Below, piece after piece: positions 30,297 to 52,434 of a DNA stretch of 54,115 bases. The first letter of the stretch is position 1; each line of letters starts with the position of its first letter. Position numbers and translations under genes: made by a program. Under the pieces are notes generated by a model. That model saw nothing but the letters and a program-made list of their open reading frames with translations. It did not search any database and was not told the origin of the DNA. Source of the stretch: an uncultured Armatimonadota bacterium (lineage in GTDB: Bacteria > Armatimonadota > Fimbriimonadia > Fimbriimonadales > Fimbriimonadaceae); the NCBI GenBank assembly GCA_903927345.1, contig CAIYMO010000037.1:1-54115 (forward strand), given 5' to 3'.

Positions 30297-31436
30297 ATGG
30301 CAATCAATACGGGCTTCAACGGAAACGAAATCTTCTGCCTCTCCAAGAAAGGCTACACCCCCGGCGAGCTTGTCATCGGAAACTCAGTCTGGTCCGTCGG
30401 GTTCATGGGCGGAATCGGACAAGCCCTCAAAACGATCGGCGGCGGCGAGGTCACCCAGATCACCGACATCATTCATGACGGCAGAAAAGCCGCGCTCGAC
30501 CGGATGGAGGCTTGGACCGGCCTTAACGGCGCCGTAGGCATCAGCGGGGTGACCAGCGAGCTCGTGATCCACAGTGGCAATATCGAATTCCTCAGCGTTG
30601 GGTCCGCCGTTCACCGCGAAGGTGTCAACGCCACCGCCCTCGAATTCACCAGCAGCTCCGATGGTCAAGAAATCTACTGCCAGCTTGACTGCGGCTACCG
30701 CCCCATCTCATTCGCTTTCGGAAACGTCGCGTACTCCATCGGCCTCGGTGGAGGAATCATGGGCGGCTTCCGCTCGCTTGTAAGGGGCGAAGTCAAAGAG
30801 TACAGCGACATCTTCTATCACACCCGCCACCTCGCACTCGAGCGAATCCAAAAGGAAGCCAAAGCAAAAGGCGCAAACTGCGTCGTTGGCATAAAGACCA
30901 ACATCATGAAGTTCCAAGGGCTTCAAGAGATGGTCATGCTCGGAACCGCGAGTCACTCCGATTTCTATGGACCGGAATACAGCGAACGGCCCGCCACCAG
31001 CGACCTCACCTGCGAGGAAATGTGGAATCTCATCCATTGCGGCTACCTCCCGCTCGAACTCGTTCTCGGGGTTAGCGTCTACTCCCTCGGCTTCGCCGGA
31101 GGAATCACATCAGCGTTTAAATCTCTTGTCCGAGGCGAAATCGAAGAGCTCACCACCCTGGTCTATGACGCTCGGGAGAACGCCCTCCATCGCCTCATGG
31201 AACACGCAGTCGAAGCCGGCGCCGATGATGTCGTCGGAATCAAAACCTACGTCTATTCACTCGGTAGCGGAGTCATCGAATTCCTCGCCATCGGAACCGC
31301 CGTCAAAAAGGTCCCCGGGCTCACCACCGTAAGCGACTCCCTCCCGCCCCAAGCAGTCATGAGCGACAAAGACACCTTCATCAACCTCGCCGACAGCCGG
31401 GTCGGCACAAACCTGAACGAGGGTAAGAAGCAGTAA
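30297..31436 (+). CDS. Triple YbjQ/DUF74 heavy-metal-binding-type protein
   Basis: 379 residues made of three tandem YbjQ-like units at about 11-106, 125-219 and 241-336. Each opens with E(I/M)..L..GY.P..L..G..V(Y/W)S(I/L/V)G and closes with a hydrophobic FL.(V/I)G(S/T)A strand. YbjQ proteins are normally about 100 residues and form pentamers, so one chain here supplies three subunits. A role in metal or stress handling is only inferred. The stop codon (TAA at 31434-31436) is part of the tyrS -10-like box. No signal peptide. Confidence 0.85.
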   Translation: MAINTGFNGNEIFCLSKKGYTPGELVIGNSVWSVGFMGGIGQALKTIGGGEVTQITDIIHDGRKAALDRMEAWTGLNGAVGISGVTSELVIHSGNIEFLSVGSAVHREGVNATALEFTSSSDGQEIYCQLDCGYRPISFAFGNVAYSIGLGGGIMGGFRSLVRGEVKEYSDIFYHTRHLALERIQKEAKAKGANCVVGIKTNIMKFQGLQEMVMLGTASHSDFYGPEYSERPATSDLTCEEMWNLIHCGYLPLELVLGVSVYSLGFAGGITSAFKSLVRGEIEELTTLVYDARENALHRLMEHAVEAGADDVVGIKTYVYSLGSGVIEFLAIGTAVKKVPGLTTVSDSLPPQAVMSDKDTFINLADSRVGTNLNEGKKQ

Positions 31437-31446: not shown

Positions 31447-32637
31447 ATGAACCTTGACGCCCAACTTGCAACCATCCGCCGCGGAACAACGGAGGTTATT
31501 GGCGAAGAAGAGATTCTGAATCGAATCAAGAAAGGGAAGACCCTTCGCGTCAAACTTGGAGTCGATCCAACGGCAAAAGATGTCACTCTCGGCTGGGCCG
31601 TCGTCCTTCGCAAACTCCGAGACTTCCAGAAGATGGGCCATATCGCCTGCCTCATCATCGGCGACTTTACCGCCCAAATCGGCGACCCGAGCGGCAAGAG
31701 TAAGACCCGAAAGCAGCTGACTCGCGAAGAAGTTCAAGCCAACGTCGACGCCGTGAGCAGTCAGATTTACAAAATCCTCGACCCCGAAAAGACCGAGATT
31801 TACTACAACAAGGACTGGCTAGGCAAGATGACGTTTGAAGACGTCATTCGCCTCTGCTCCCGTTACACCGTCGCCCGAATCATGGAGCGCGACGACTTTA
31901 CCAAGCGGTTCAACAACAACCAGCCAATCGCAATGCACGAGATCCTCTACCCTCTTTGCCAAGGGATGGACTCGGTTGAGATTAAGTGCGACATTGAAAT
32001 CGGCGGAAACGACCAGAAGTTCAACAACCTTGTCGGCCGAACCCTGATGGAGCAGTACGGCCAAGATCCCCAAGCTGTCATCCTCTGCCCACTCCTCGTC
32101 GGCACCGATGGCAAAGAGAAGATGAGCCAGTCGCTGGGGAACTACATCTCGATCATGGATGCGCCCAACGACATGTTCGGCAAAACCATGTCGATCCCCG
32201 ACGACATCATCGCTAACTGGTTCGAGCTCTGCACCGACGTACCGCTCGAAGAAGTCCGGGGAATGCTTGTCGAGGGCAAAAACCCCCGCGACGCCAAGAT
32301 TAGATTAGCAAAAGAGATCGTCACCTTGTACCACTCTGTCGAGGCAGGAGAGGAAGCCGAGCGGTTCTTCATCGAAACCTTCTCGCAGCGCAAGGTCGTC
32401 ACCGACGCCGAAGAAGTCTCCATCCCCGATGACCTGGTTCAGGATGGGATGATCTCACTTCCCGCCCTCATCGCTGGGTTGGGACTCGCCGCCAGCAACG
32501 GAAAAGCCAAGGACCTGATTTCCAGCGGAGCCGTAGCCCTCGACGGCGAAAAAGTGACCGAGCTACGAATGAGCAAAGCTGACTTAGAAGGAAAGATCCT
32601 CAAAGTCGGAAAGCATCAGTTCCGCAAACTCGCCTGA
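31447..32637 (+). CDS. tyrS: Tyrosyl-tRNA synthetase with altered HIGH motif
   Basis: The 396 residues are a full-length class Ic TyrRS with a Rossmann catalytic domain, KMSQS (225-229) and a C-terminal S4 RNA-binding domain (ALIAGLGLAASNGKAKDLISSGAVALDGEK). At the position of HIGH (after LGVDPTAK) it reads TLGW (47-50), losing both histidines, although VKLGVDPTA and GDPSGKS are kept. It still looks like the housekeeping enzyme: domain order and length are normal. The gene ends overlapping the convergent 33284 gene by 22 bases. tRNA-Tyr, its substrate, is at 52349. Confidence 0.94.
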   Translation: MNLDAQLATIRRGTTEVIGEEEILNRIKKGKTLRVKLGVDPTAKDVTLGWAVVLRKLRDFQKMGHIACLIIGDFTAQIGDPSGKSKTRKQLTREEVQANVDAVSSQIYKILDPEKTEIYYNKDWLGKMTFEDVIRLCSRYTVARIMERDDFTKRFNNNQPIAMHEILYPLCQGMDSVEIKCDIEIGGNDQKFNNLVGRTLMEQYGQDPQAVILCPLLVGTDGKEKMSQSLGNYISIMDAPNDMFGKTMSIPDDIIANWFELCTDVPLEEVRGMLVEGKNPRDAKIRLAKEIVTLYHSVEAGEEAERFFIETFSQRKVVTDAEEVSIPDDLVQDGMISLPALIAGLGLAASNGKAKDLISSGAVALDGEKVTELRMSKADLEGKILKVGKHQFRKLA

Positions 32638-33981: not shown

Positions 33982-34950
33982 ATGAGAATTGAGAACCTTT
34001 GGTTTGGGCAAGGTTGGAGACCCCACGTTGGGCGACTTCTTCTTCTGCCGATCACGGCACTCTATTCACTTGCCTGGCAAGTTTACCTGGTATTTTATCG
34101 GCTCGGATTCAAGAAAGCTTTAGAGCCCCACCCCCGAGTGATCTGCATTGGTAACCTCACCGCAGGCGGTTCTGGGAAGACTCCTGTGACTCTGTTTGTC
34201 ACGGATTGCCTCCTCAAACTCGGTCACCAACCCATCGTGAGTTGTAGCGGCTACGGCAGTCCCGCCTCCGAAGCTGCCCAAATGGCCCCCGATGGTCCTC
34301 TTAACCCCGCCGAGTGGGGAGACGAACCTTCTGAGCTTCGTGACTTCCGACCAGCTCTCCCCATCGTCGTAGGCAGGCGCCGCGTCCTTGCCGCCGAACT
34401 CGCCGCAAAAGCAAATCCAAACTCCGTTCTCGTCCTCGATGACGGCTTCCAACACCTCCCGCTCCACAAGCATCTAACGATCATCCTTGACGCTCTCAAT
34501 CCTGCGAACAAGCTCCCGTTCCCATCGGGTCCCTACCGCGAACCACGTTGGAACCGATCCCGAGCCGACTTGTCTCTCCCCAACGATCAATTCCAAATCG
34601 TCTACTCCGCCCCCGAATTTGTCGACCCCCAAGGCACACTTCTTTCCATCCCGGCCGACGCCGTCGTCCTCACCGCAATCGCTCGCCCGGACCTATTCGT
34701 TGAAACCCTGAAGGCGGCGGGTGTGACAATCACAGAGGTTGATTCCAAACCCGATCATGACCCTCTCAACGATCCCGAACTGTTTTCGCGTCACAATGGA
34801 AAGGTCGTCATCGTAACGATGAAGGACTGGGTGAAATTACGCACGCGGGAAGATTTGAACAAATCTCAAATCGTTATTGCTCGGCGTCAAGCAACAATCG
34901 AACCCAAAGAAGAGTTCATACAGTGGCTAAAGGAGCGAATCCCTGAATAA
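33982..34950 (+). CDS. lpxK: Tetraacyldisaccharide 4'-kinase (lipid A synthesis)
   Basis: 322 residues with an N-terminal hydrophobic anchor (about 17-38) and a Walker A loop GNLTAGGSGKTP (57-68). LDDGFQH (152-158) supplies the catalytic Asp-His region that LpxK shares with P-loop kinases. It phosphorylates the 4' position of tetraacyldisaccharide 1-phosphate at the inner membrane, producing lipid IVA. It heads an LPS operon whose next gene begins 26 bases on. Presence of this gene indicates a true lipid-A outer membrane. Confidence 0.95.
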   Translation: MRIENLWFGQGWRPHVGRLLLLPITALYSLAWQVYLVFYRLGFKKALEPHPRVICIGNLTAGGSGKTPVTLFVTDCLLKLGHQPIVSCSGYGSPASEAAQMAPDGPLNPAEWGDEPSELRDFRPALPIVVGRRRVLAAELAAKANPNSVLVLDDGFQHLPLHKHLTIILDALNPANKLPFPSGPYREPRWNRSRADLSLPNDQFQIVYSAPEFVDPQGTLLSIPADAVVLTAIARPDLFVETLKAAGVTITEVDSKPDHDPLNDPELFSRHNGKVVIVTMKDWVKLRTREDLNKSQIVIARRQATIEPKEEFIQWLKERIPE

Positions 34951-34975
34951 GAAAACATTCATCCACCAACTGGGG

Positions 34976-35824
34976 TTGGGCGTCCTCAACTTCGGCGAAA
35001 AGTGGTTCCGTATTCCTGACATCGCCAAGGCCGAACGGCGCGGCGCATCCCTCGGCATGCTCCTCTGGCGGCTTGACAAGAAGCACCGAACACGTACGAT
35101 CGCAAATATCAACCTAGCGTTCCCCGAAATGCCCGTCGCCGAACAAGCCAACATGGCCCAAGAAATGTTCCGGCACTTCGGTCGCGTCGTCGCAGACTTC
35201 CTCCGCTCACCGCTCGTCAAGCAAGATGAACTCCGAGCCCAAACCGAAGTCCAGGGTATCGAACATCTACAAAGCGTCCGCGACCAAGGACAAGGAGTTC
35301 TCCTCCTCAGCGCCCACCTCGGCAACTTCGAAAGAATGTGCCACTACATCTCCCTACAGGACATCAAAGTTTCCGGCATCGCACGCGACGCCAACGAGTC
35401 CGCTATTACTGACAAGGTCAACGCCCTCCGAGGACAGTACATGGACATCCTCAGCCGGGGCAATGCCGCGCGCGAAACCATCAAACGGCTCAAGGCGAAC
35501 GAACTTGTCGTCATCCTGCCCGACCAAAACGCCGACGAAGCCTATCTTCCGTTCTTCGGAAAACCCGCTGGTACGGTCCTCGGCCCAGCAGTACTCCATC
35601 TCCGGACAAAGGCGCCCATCCTCCCCTGCTGCCACCTGCGAACAGGTCCTGGCAAGTACAAACACGTCTATTTAGAACCTCTACGCGCGCTTCCAGAAGA
35701 AAAGCCAGAAGAGCTGATGGCAAGGGTCAACCTCGCGATCGAAGAAATGGTCCGCTTGGCGCCCGAGCAATACCTCTGGATGCATGACCGTTGGAAGTAC
35801 GCCCGCCGCCGGGGTCTTCTGTGA
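34976..35824 (+). CDS. lpxL: LpxL/HtrB-type lysophospholipid acyltransferase
   Basis: About 282 residues. The acyltransferase HxxxxE motif is H114-LGNF-E119 (SAHLGNFER), followed by NELVVILPDQNADEAYLPFFGKPAGTVLGPAVL, a region shared with late lipid A acyltransferases that add the secondary acyl chain. The start given is TTG at 34976. The reading frame continues upstream with a CTG at 34943 overlapping the lpxK stop, giving the stretch NKKTFIHQLGLGVLNF, so the true start is uncertain. The stop overlaps the GT9 gene (GTGA). Confidence 0.88.
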   Translation: MGVLNFGEKWFRIPDIAKAERRGASLGMLLWRLDKKHRTRTIANINLAFPEMPVAEQANMAQEMFRHFGRVVADFLRSPLVKQDELRAQTEVQGIEHLQSVRDQGQGVLLLSAHLGNFERMCHYISLQDIKVSGIARDANESAITDKVNALRGQYMDILSRGNAARETIKRLKANELVVILPDQNADEAYLPFFGKPAGTVLGPAVLHLRTKAPILPCCHLRTGPGKYKHVYLEPLRALPEEKPEELMARVNLAIEEMVRLAPEQYLWMHDRWKYARRRGLL

Positions 35825-52348: not shown

Positions 52349-52434
52349 GGTGAGTTGCCCGAGTGGCCAATGGGAACAGACTGTAAATCTGTCGGCGAGA
52401 GCCTACGCAGGTTCGAATCCTGCACTCACCACCA
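52349..52434 (+). tRNA. tRNA-Tyr (anticodon GTA)
   Basis: Acceptor stem GGTGAGT (52349-52355) pairs with ACTCACC (52424-52430), discriminator A, CCA encoded at 52432-52434. The anticodon stem-loop AGACTGTAAATCT gives GTA at 52383-52385. The long variable arm is the class II type of bacterial tRNA-Tyr. GTTCGAATC forms the T-loop. Confidence 0.96.

Follow-up and report, generated by a model that had tools for sequence, protein, structure and literature searches.

The window analysed here, 54,115 nucleotides of contig CAIYMO010000037.1 (positions 1 to 54,115) from an uncultured Armatimonadota bacterium of the family Fimbriimonadaceae (assembly GCA_903927345.1), carries a tyrS gene for a tyrosyl-tRNA synthetase (TyrRS) in which HIGH reads TLGW and KMSKS reads KMSQS. 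The enzyme belongs to a known family and carries a clade-wide, recurrent and coupled variant of these two motifs, natural variation of HIGH as such being already known. With a probability of about 0.6, it is regarded as the sole working TyrRS of its genome, whose adenylation site was rewired at both motifs and in which Trp50 and Gln228 form a coupled pair. HIGH and KMSKS are textbook signatures of class I synthetases, and their cooperation in the transition state is known mostly from point mutants.

The tyrS gene and its altered motifs

The features of the gene were as follows.

31447..32637, + strand: tyrS, TyrRS of 396 amino acids, the only one of the genome; matches TIGR00234 and PF00579
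31570..31572, + strand: Thr42 of DPTA, kept; nearly invariant in alignment A1 (35 sequences)
31585..31596, + strand: TLGW (residues 47-50), equivalent of HxGH; Thr47 at the first His site, Trp50 at the second
31948..31971, + strand: YPLCQGMD (residues 168-175), Y..Q..D tyrosine pocket, kept; invariant in A1
32119..32133, + strand: KMSQS (residues 225-229); Gln228 at the second Lys of KMSKS, proposed partner of Trp50
32464..32562, + strand: S4-like tRNA-binding region (residues 340-372); PF01479 at 19.9 bits, under the Pfam cut-off of 22.8

The translation of the tyrS reading frame around the HIGH region reads ...LGVDPTAKDVTLGWAVVLRKL..., and the codons at 31585-31596 are ACT CTC GGC TGG (T47, L48, G49, W50). 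In the nearest solved TyrRS (6bqy, 1h3e and 6byq), the alignments placed HLGH at the TLGW site and KMSKS at the KMSQS site. An earlier note on this DNA had located TLGW at exactly these bases and described both HIGH histidines as gone, which the codons and the alignments bore out. Its description of KMSQS and the rest of the enzyme as normal did not hold, because the fourth KMSKS residue is Gln228 where the three solved relatives have Lys. The class I HxGH signature was thus absent, and the KMSKS signature retained its first Lys with the second replaced.

The protein was otherwise that of an ordinary TyrRS. It scored 343 bits against the NCBIfam tyrosine--tRNA ligase model TIGR00234 (cut-off 113.8) and 250.7 bits against PF00579 (cut-off 21.1), and only 27.5 bits against TIGR00233, the model of tryptophanyl-tRNA synthetase (TrpRS; cut-off 176.75). 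Y168, Q172, D175, G186, G187, D189 and Q190 were invariant in A1 (n = 35); we take these residues of Y..Q..D and GGxDQ to form the tyrosine pocket, as in TyrRS structures. Thr42 is presumably the equivalent of Bacillus stearothermophilus Thr40, and the other equivalences to the classical mutants of that TyrRS are likewise assumed here. An AlphaFold model (35 rows) gave a mean predicted local distance difference test (pLDDT) score of 89.4 and a predicted template modelling (pTM) score of 0.79. Its Foldseek ranks 1-4 were all Thermus thermophilus TyrRS (template modelling score 0.86-0.87 by query length, 40-41% identity). The predicted fold is ordinary and is the class I catalytic fold. HxGH is not obligatory for class I membership, since human TyrRS (HVAY) and Escherichia coli TrpRS (TIGN) are members.

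Coupling of Trp50 and Gln228 across relatives

Loci were collected as best matches and hand-picked regions, a mode of sampling that favours relatives of the window enzyme. TyrRS of this type was matched in 272 of 291 genomes of the window's phylum, and in the phyla of L167 (titled Acidimicrobiia; 360 of 396 genomes), L160 (Chloroflexota; 197 of 201), L157 (Phycisphaerales; 73 of 79) and L152 (Tumebacillus; 115 of 119). Further loci came from additional regions, a pattern scan for Thr at the first His and three plasmid records. Altogether 428 of the 429 loci matched, and after 38 were dropped (<200 bits or <330 amino acids), 390 full-length rows were obtained, 383 of them unique. Duplicate genes were present among the 390 rows (e.g. 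L001/L003 and L074/L095), and a few may persist among the 383 through trimmed starts.

Every one of the 87 unique rows in which Trp replaces the second HIGH His carried Gln228, compared with 2 of the 296 other unique rows (L160 and L323). With duplicates included, the counts were 91/91 Trp rows (83 TLGW and 8 HLGW) versus 2/299. The combination of Trp with Lys did not occur among the 383 unique rows; L366 is misaligned at the second KMSKS Lys and unreadable there. Phe, Asn, Ser or Thr stood at the second His in 48 unique rows with the second Lys intact, so that Gln tracks Trp and not the mere loss of the second His; the proposal that any such loss brings Gln228 was rejected on the same ground. 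HLGW/KMSQS rows without Thr were present in both phyla with Trp50, the window's phylum and Actinomycetota (assigned from record titles), with 6 and 2 full-length rows. The Trp and Gln pair therefore does not need Thr, and the idea that Trp always brings Thr was rejected by these eight rows. The earlier note had implied a compensated active site. A candidate partner was found in Gln228, which accompanies Trp50 in every full-length row; that the two are in physical contact, or compensate each other functionally, is what we infer from this.

Number of origins

In a 102-row IQ-TREE tree calculated with the motif columns excluded, W50 and Q228 required four changes each, which fell on the same four of 202 branches. 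Two of these branches belong to the window's phylum (its big clade and a small one, L059 and L060), the third to an actinobacterial clade and the fourth to L259/L313, which carry HIGH and KMSK, are nested in the actinobacterial clade and look like a joint reversal. By a crude length-weighted estimate, the chance of such coincidence was about 6e-9 for four shared branches and about 8e-5 for two. On a FastTree tree of 383 rows, W50 needed four changes and Q228 six. Approximately unbiased (AU) tests, run after the FastTree had been inspected, rejected monophyly of the W rows (p = 0.0009), and with it the candidate explanation that horizontal transfer spread TLGW as a single clade. Because a single origin of W50 was rejected, the W50/Q228 pair has two or more origins, one in the window's phylum and another in Actinomycetota.

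The W clades of the window's phylum adjoin HLGF/KMSKS relatives in the 102-row tree, and Phe may therefore have been the step before Trp. The order of events would then be Phe, Trp together with Gln, and finally Thr.

Distribution of TLGW

TLGW was present in 46 of 46 genes of this TyrRS type read in the family, one from the window and 45 from relatives, and persisted where identity fell to about 57%. Under the genetic code, replacing His by Thr, or Phe or His by Trp, takes two or more base changes in each case. Given this and the 46 genes, a sequencing error is unlikely. The earlier note had suggested a lineage-specific state, which stood for the family as sampled; beyond it, TLGW/KMSQS recurs in Actinomycetota with a separate origin. 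That note had also weighed the motif being common across many phyla; in Verrucomicrobiota, Planctomycetota, Chloroflexota, one Bacillota and two candidate-phyla records, Thr at the first His came with the second His kept.

In four further family members, the best match was a distant TyrRS type, 28-31% identical, with the motif HVGS (L090/G112, L084/G118, L082/G119 and L085/G120), suggesting that the TLGW enzyme was replaced there. Two other distant TyrRS of the same phylum (L079 in G216 and L083 in G213; 29-30% identical) read TAGH, with the first His lost. At L074/L095 (G071), the tyrS match is split into residues 1-157 and residues 160-395, with about 130 bases between the two pieces; the pieces share one 514-residue open frame and may be separated by an in-frame insert of about 44 residues.

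A single TyrRS in the genome

The genome of the window (3.1 Mb, 57 contigs, 100% complete) contains two PF00579 genes. The other one is a TrpRS, with 275.4 bits against the TrpRS model (cut-off 176.75) and the motif HLGN. A second TyrRS was sought by the family-level PF00579 search in this 100%-complete genome and none was found, in agreement with the earlier note, which had considered the window enzyme probably the only one. With one TyrRS and one TrpRS in the genome, the window TyrRS would have to work, and from its sole-copy status it probably charges tRNA-Tyr with tyrosine. The putative substrate lies in the same window.

52349..52434, + strand: tRNA-Tyr(GUA), with G1-C72 and A73

We take G1-C72 and A73 to be identity elements as in ordinary bacterial tRNA-Tyr.

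Threonine at the first histidine

A scan for this TyrRS type across 84,980 genomes, in which the first His had to be Thr and QFQ had to be present, gave at least 119 stretches. This pattern leaves aside HLGW/KMSQS enzymes (no Thr) in further phyla and gives no frequency over all bacteria. Among the matches listed, TFGH occurred at least 59 times, TLGH at least 41, TLGW at least 12, TIGH at least 6 and TXGH at least once. By their titles, the listed matches with the second His kept were mostly Verrucomicrobiota (Opitutales), followed by Planctomycetota and Chloroflexota, together with one Bacillota, one Gracilibacteria and one Peregrinibacteria record. The listed TLGW matches (at least 12) were titled actinobacterial or only "bacterium". 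Their genomes had two PF00579 matches each, a number that was counted by family match and not by gene-by-gene identity and that fits one TyrRS and one TrpRS. A contig titled Polynucleobacter meluiroseus (L208) carried a TFGH TyrRS resembling those of Opitutales records, possibly owing to a binning error.

In samples not chosen for Thr, Thr with a non-Trp second site was uncommon (7/180, in four phyla): actinobacterial 0/70, Chloroflexota 3/50, Planctomycetota 4/30 and Bacillota 0/30 rows; Verrucomicrobiota entered through the pattern scan only. The 383-row FastTree, whose rows are enriched for Thr, required 17 or more His-to-Thr changes at the first site. As several phyla combine Thr with an intact second His and KMSKS, this change recurs independently of KMSKS. 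In the W rows of both phyla HLGW was the minority and TLGW the majority, which fits, and does not prove, that Thr arrived after Trp and Gln.

Possible mechanism and alternative explanations

The joint behaviour of the two sites suggests that HIGH and KMSKS can be rewired as a pair. When the KMSKS loop closes over ATP, Gln228 and the edge of Trp50 would substitute for the Lys and His contacts to the nucleotide, and Trp50-Gln228 would be partners in the closed state, either His with Lys or Trp with Gln being serviceable. Lys225 and Thr42 would be retained as phosphate ligands, roles which we assume from classical TyrRS work. Thr47 might stand in for the first His, as in E. coli TrpRS (TIGN). A more specific and tentative proposal, to which we give somewhat less than even odds, is that the second positions of HIGH (His or Trp) and KMSKS (Lys or Gln) make up a single exchangeable catalytic module, His+Lys or Trp+Gln, that was swapped as a unit several times, with a likely reversal in L259/L313. 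Such swapping would imply that Trp+Lys intermediates are disfavoured.

HIGH and KMSKS were described as stabilizing the transition state, with KMSKS forming a mobile loop; TyrRS activity fell when either of the HIGH histidines was mutated (PMC5919687). In Plasmodium falciparum TyrRS, the Met of the KMSKS loop is in contact with the first HIGH His, whose rotation accompanies loop mobility (PMC7613620).

Several observations weigh against a coupled Trp50-Gln228 pair. The published contact between HIGH and KMSKS involves the first His and not the second (PMC7613620). Loss of the second His alone does not require Gln, as the 48 unique rows with Phe, Asn, Ser or Thr and an intact Lys demonstrated. 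Conversely, three rows retain the second His and yet lack the second Lys, L160 and L323 (Gln) and L241 (Ser), the last of which reads HIGH with KMSSS and counts against a strict Trp-Gln rule. A single W clade per phylum withstood the AU test (p 0.33 and 0.41), so that only two origins are secure. An independent-pairs sign test gave p 0.125, although with only 4 pairs it cannot reach 0.05.

Of the alternatives, relaxed or neutral drift fared best, and it is still improbable. It supposes that the HIGH histidines are of minor importance in this TyrRS type and that Trp and Gln are tolerated, which is in line with Phe, Asn, Ser, Thr or Trp at the second His in many relatives and with the repeated first-His-to-Thr changes on the Thr-enriched FastTree (at least 17). 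However, drift leaves unexplained why Gln228 occurs almost only with Trp50 (87/87 versus 2/296) and on shared branches, and why TLGW was kept in 46/46 family members at identities down to about 57%; the lowered activity of the His mutants (PMC5919687) also argues against it.

Escape from a natural TyrRS inhibitor, such as an adenylate mimic or nucleoside sulfamate, is slightly less probable still. Both motifs that clasp the nucleotide part of the inhibitor would have been changed together, much as type 2 isoleucyl-tRNA synthetases (IleRS2) with an altered HXGH evade mupirocin. TyrRS loop mobility was associated with lower susceptibility to sulfamate reaction hijacking (PMC7613620). A second TyrRS is absent from the genome, however, and the eight nearby proteins scanned suggest no resistance or antibiotic gene, no search having been aimed at such genes.

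It is also unlikely, on analogy with the human enzyme, that a potassium ion takes over the role of the lost second Lys. Potassium is reportedly able to replace the second KMSKS Lys in human TyrRS, a finding ascribed to Austin and First in 2002. The pairing of HVAY with KMSSS in human TyrRS (PMC7613620, PMC2813244) would agree with such chemistry, but Gln differs from Ser and the window enzyme belongs to another TyrRS branch.

That the protein is a pseudo-enzyme or paralogue, with another enzyme charging tRNA-Tyr, is very improbable: two to three catalytic side chains are missing, but it is the sole TyrRS of a 100%-complete genome, its reading frame is intact, its tyrosine-pocket residues are invariant in 35 rows and TLGW was kept in all 46 family members in which a gene of this type was read.

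Genomic surroundings

A 379-residue protein with three YbjQ_1 (putative heavy-metal-binding) stretches is encoded at 30297-31436 (+), ending 10 bases upstream of tyrS, and may share its transcript. Downstream, at 33982-35824 (+), are LpxK and a lipid A acyltransferase gene, from which the lineage probably makes lipid A. A phage or plasmid origin of tyrS was rejected, all matches being <60% identical (113 plasmid and 45 phage records); the best phage match, from an Acinetobacter phage record, was 47.8%.

Comparison with known systems

In the open-access literature, a scope outside which most subscription journals lie, no paper was found with KMSQS or TLGW together with a tRNA synthetase, or linking Armatimonadetes with TyrRS; the literature searched seems to hold no description of the coupled Trp/Gln state or of its recurrence. 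A natural pair that switched jointly in two phyla, with the first His varying separately, is ready material for double-mutant cycles. Annotation based on the motifs could call working synthetases of this kind dead.

Human cytoplasmic TyrRS, presumably of a different branch from the window enzyme, resembles it by an aromatic residue at the second HIGH His and by loss of the second KMSKS Lys; it differs in keeping the first His and in having Tyr/Ser instead of Trp/Gln. In P. falciparum TyrRS, the motifs are HIAQ and KMSKS (PMC7613620). E. coli TrpRS has Thr at the first HIGH position as in the window TyrRS (TIGN; PMC10201369), but Asn at the second and an intact KMSKS. IleRS2, with G/AXHH, is likewise a natural and recurrent HIGH alteration in a working class I enzyme; there positions 1 and 3 are swapped, the change is linked to mupirocin, and the parts of that report available mention no KMSKS change (PMC10485003). 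The TFGH/TLGH/TIGH TyrRS of Opitutales, Phycisphaerae, Chloroflexota and a few others are of the same type and have Thr at the first His, but keep the second His and, except L160, the second Lys. The closest likeness is with TyrRS of the T. thermophilus/Acinetobacter type (1h3e, 9sdf, 6bqy), which were the best sequence and fold matches and share fold, length and tyrosine pocket; 1h3e and 6bqy have HLGH and KMSKS, whereas the window TyrRS has Thr at the first His, Trp at the second His and Gln at the second Lys.
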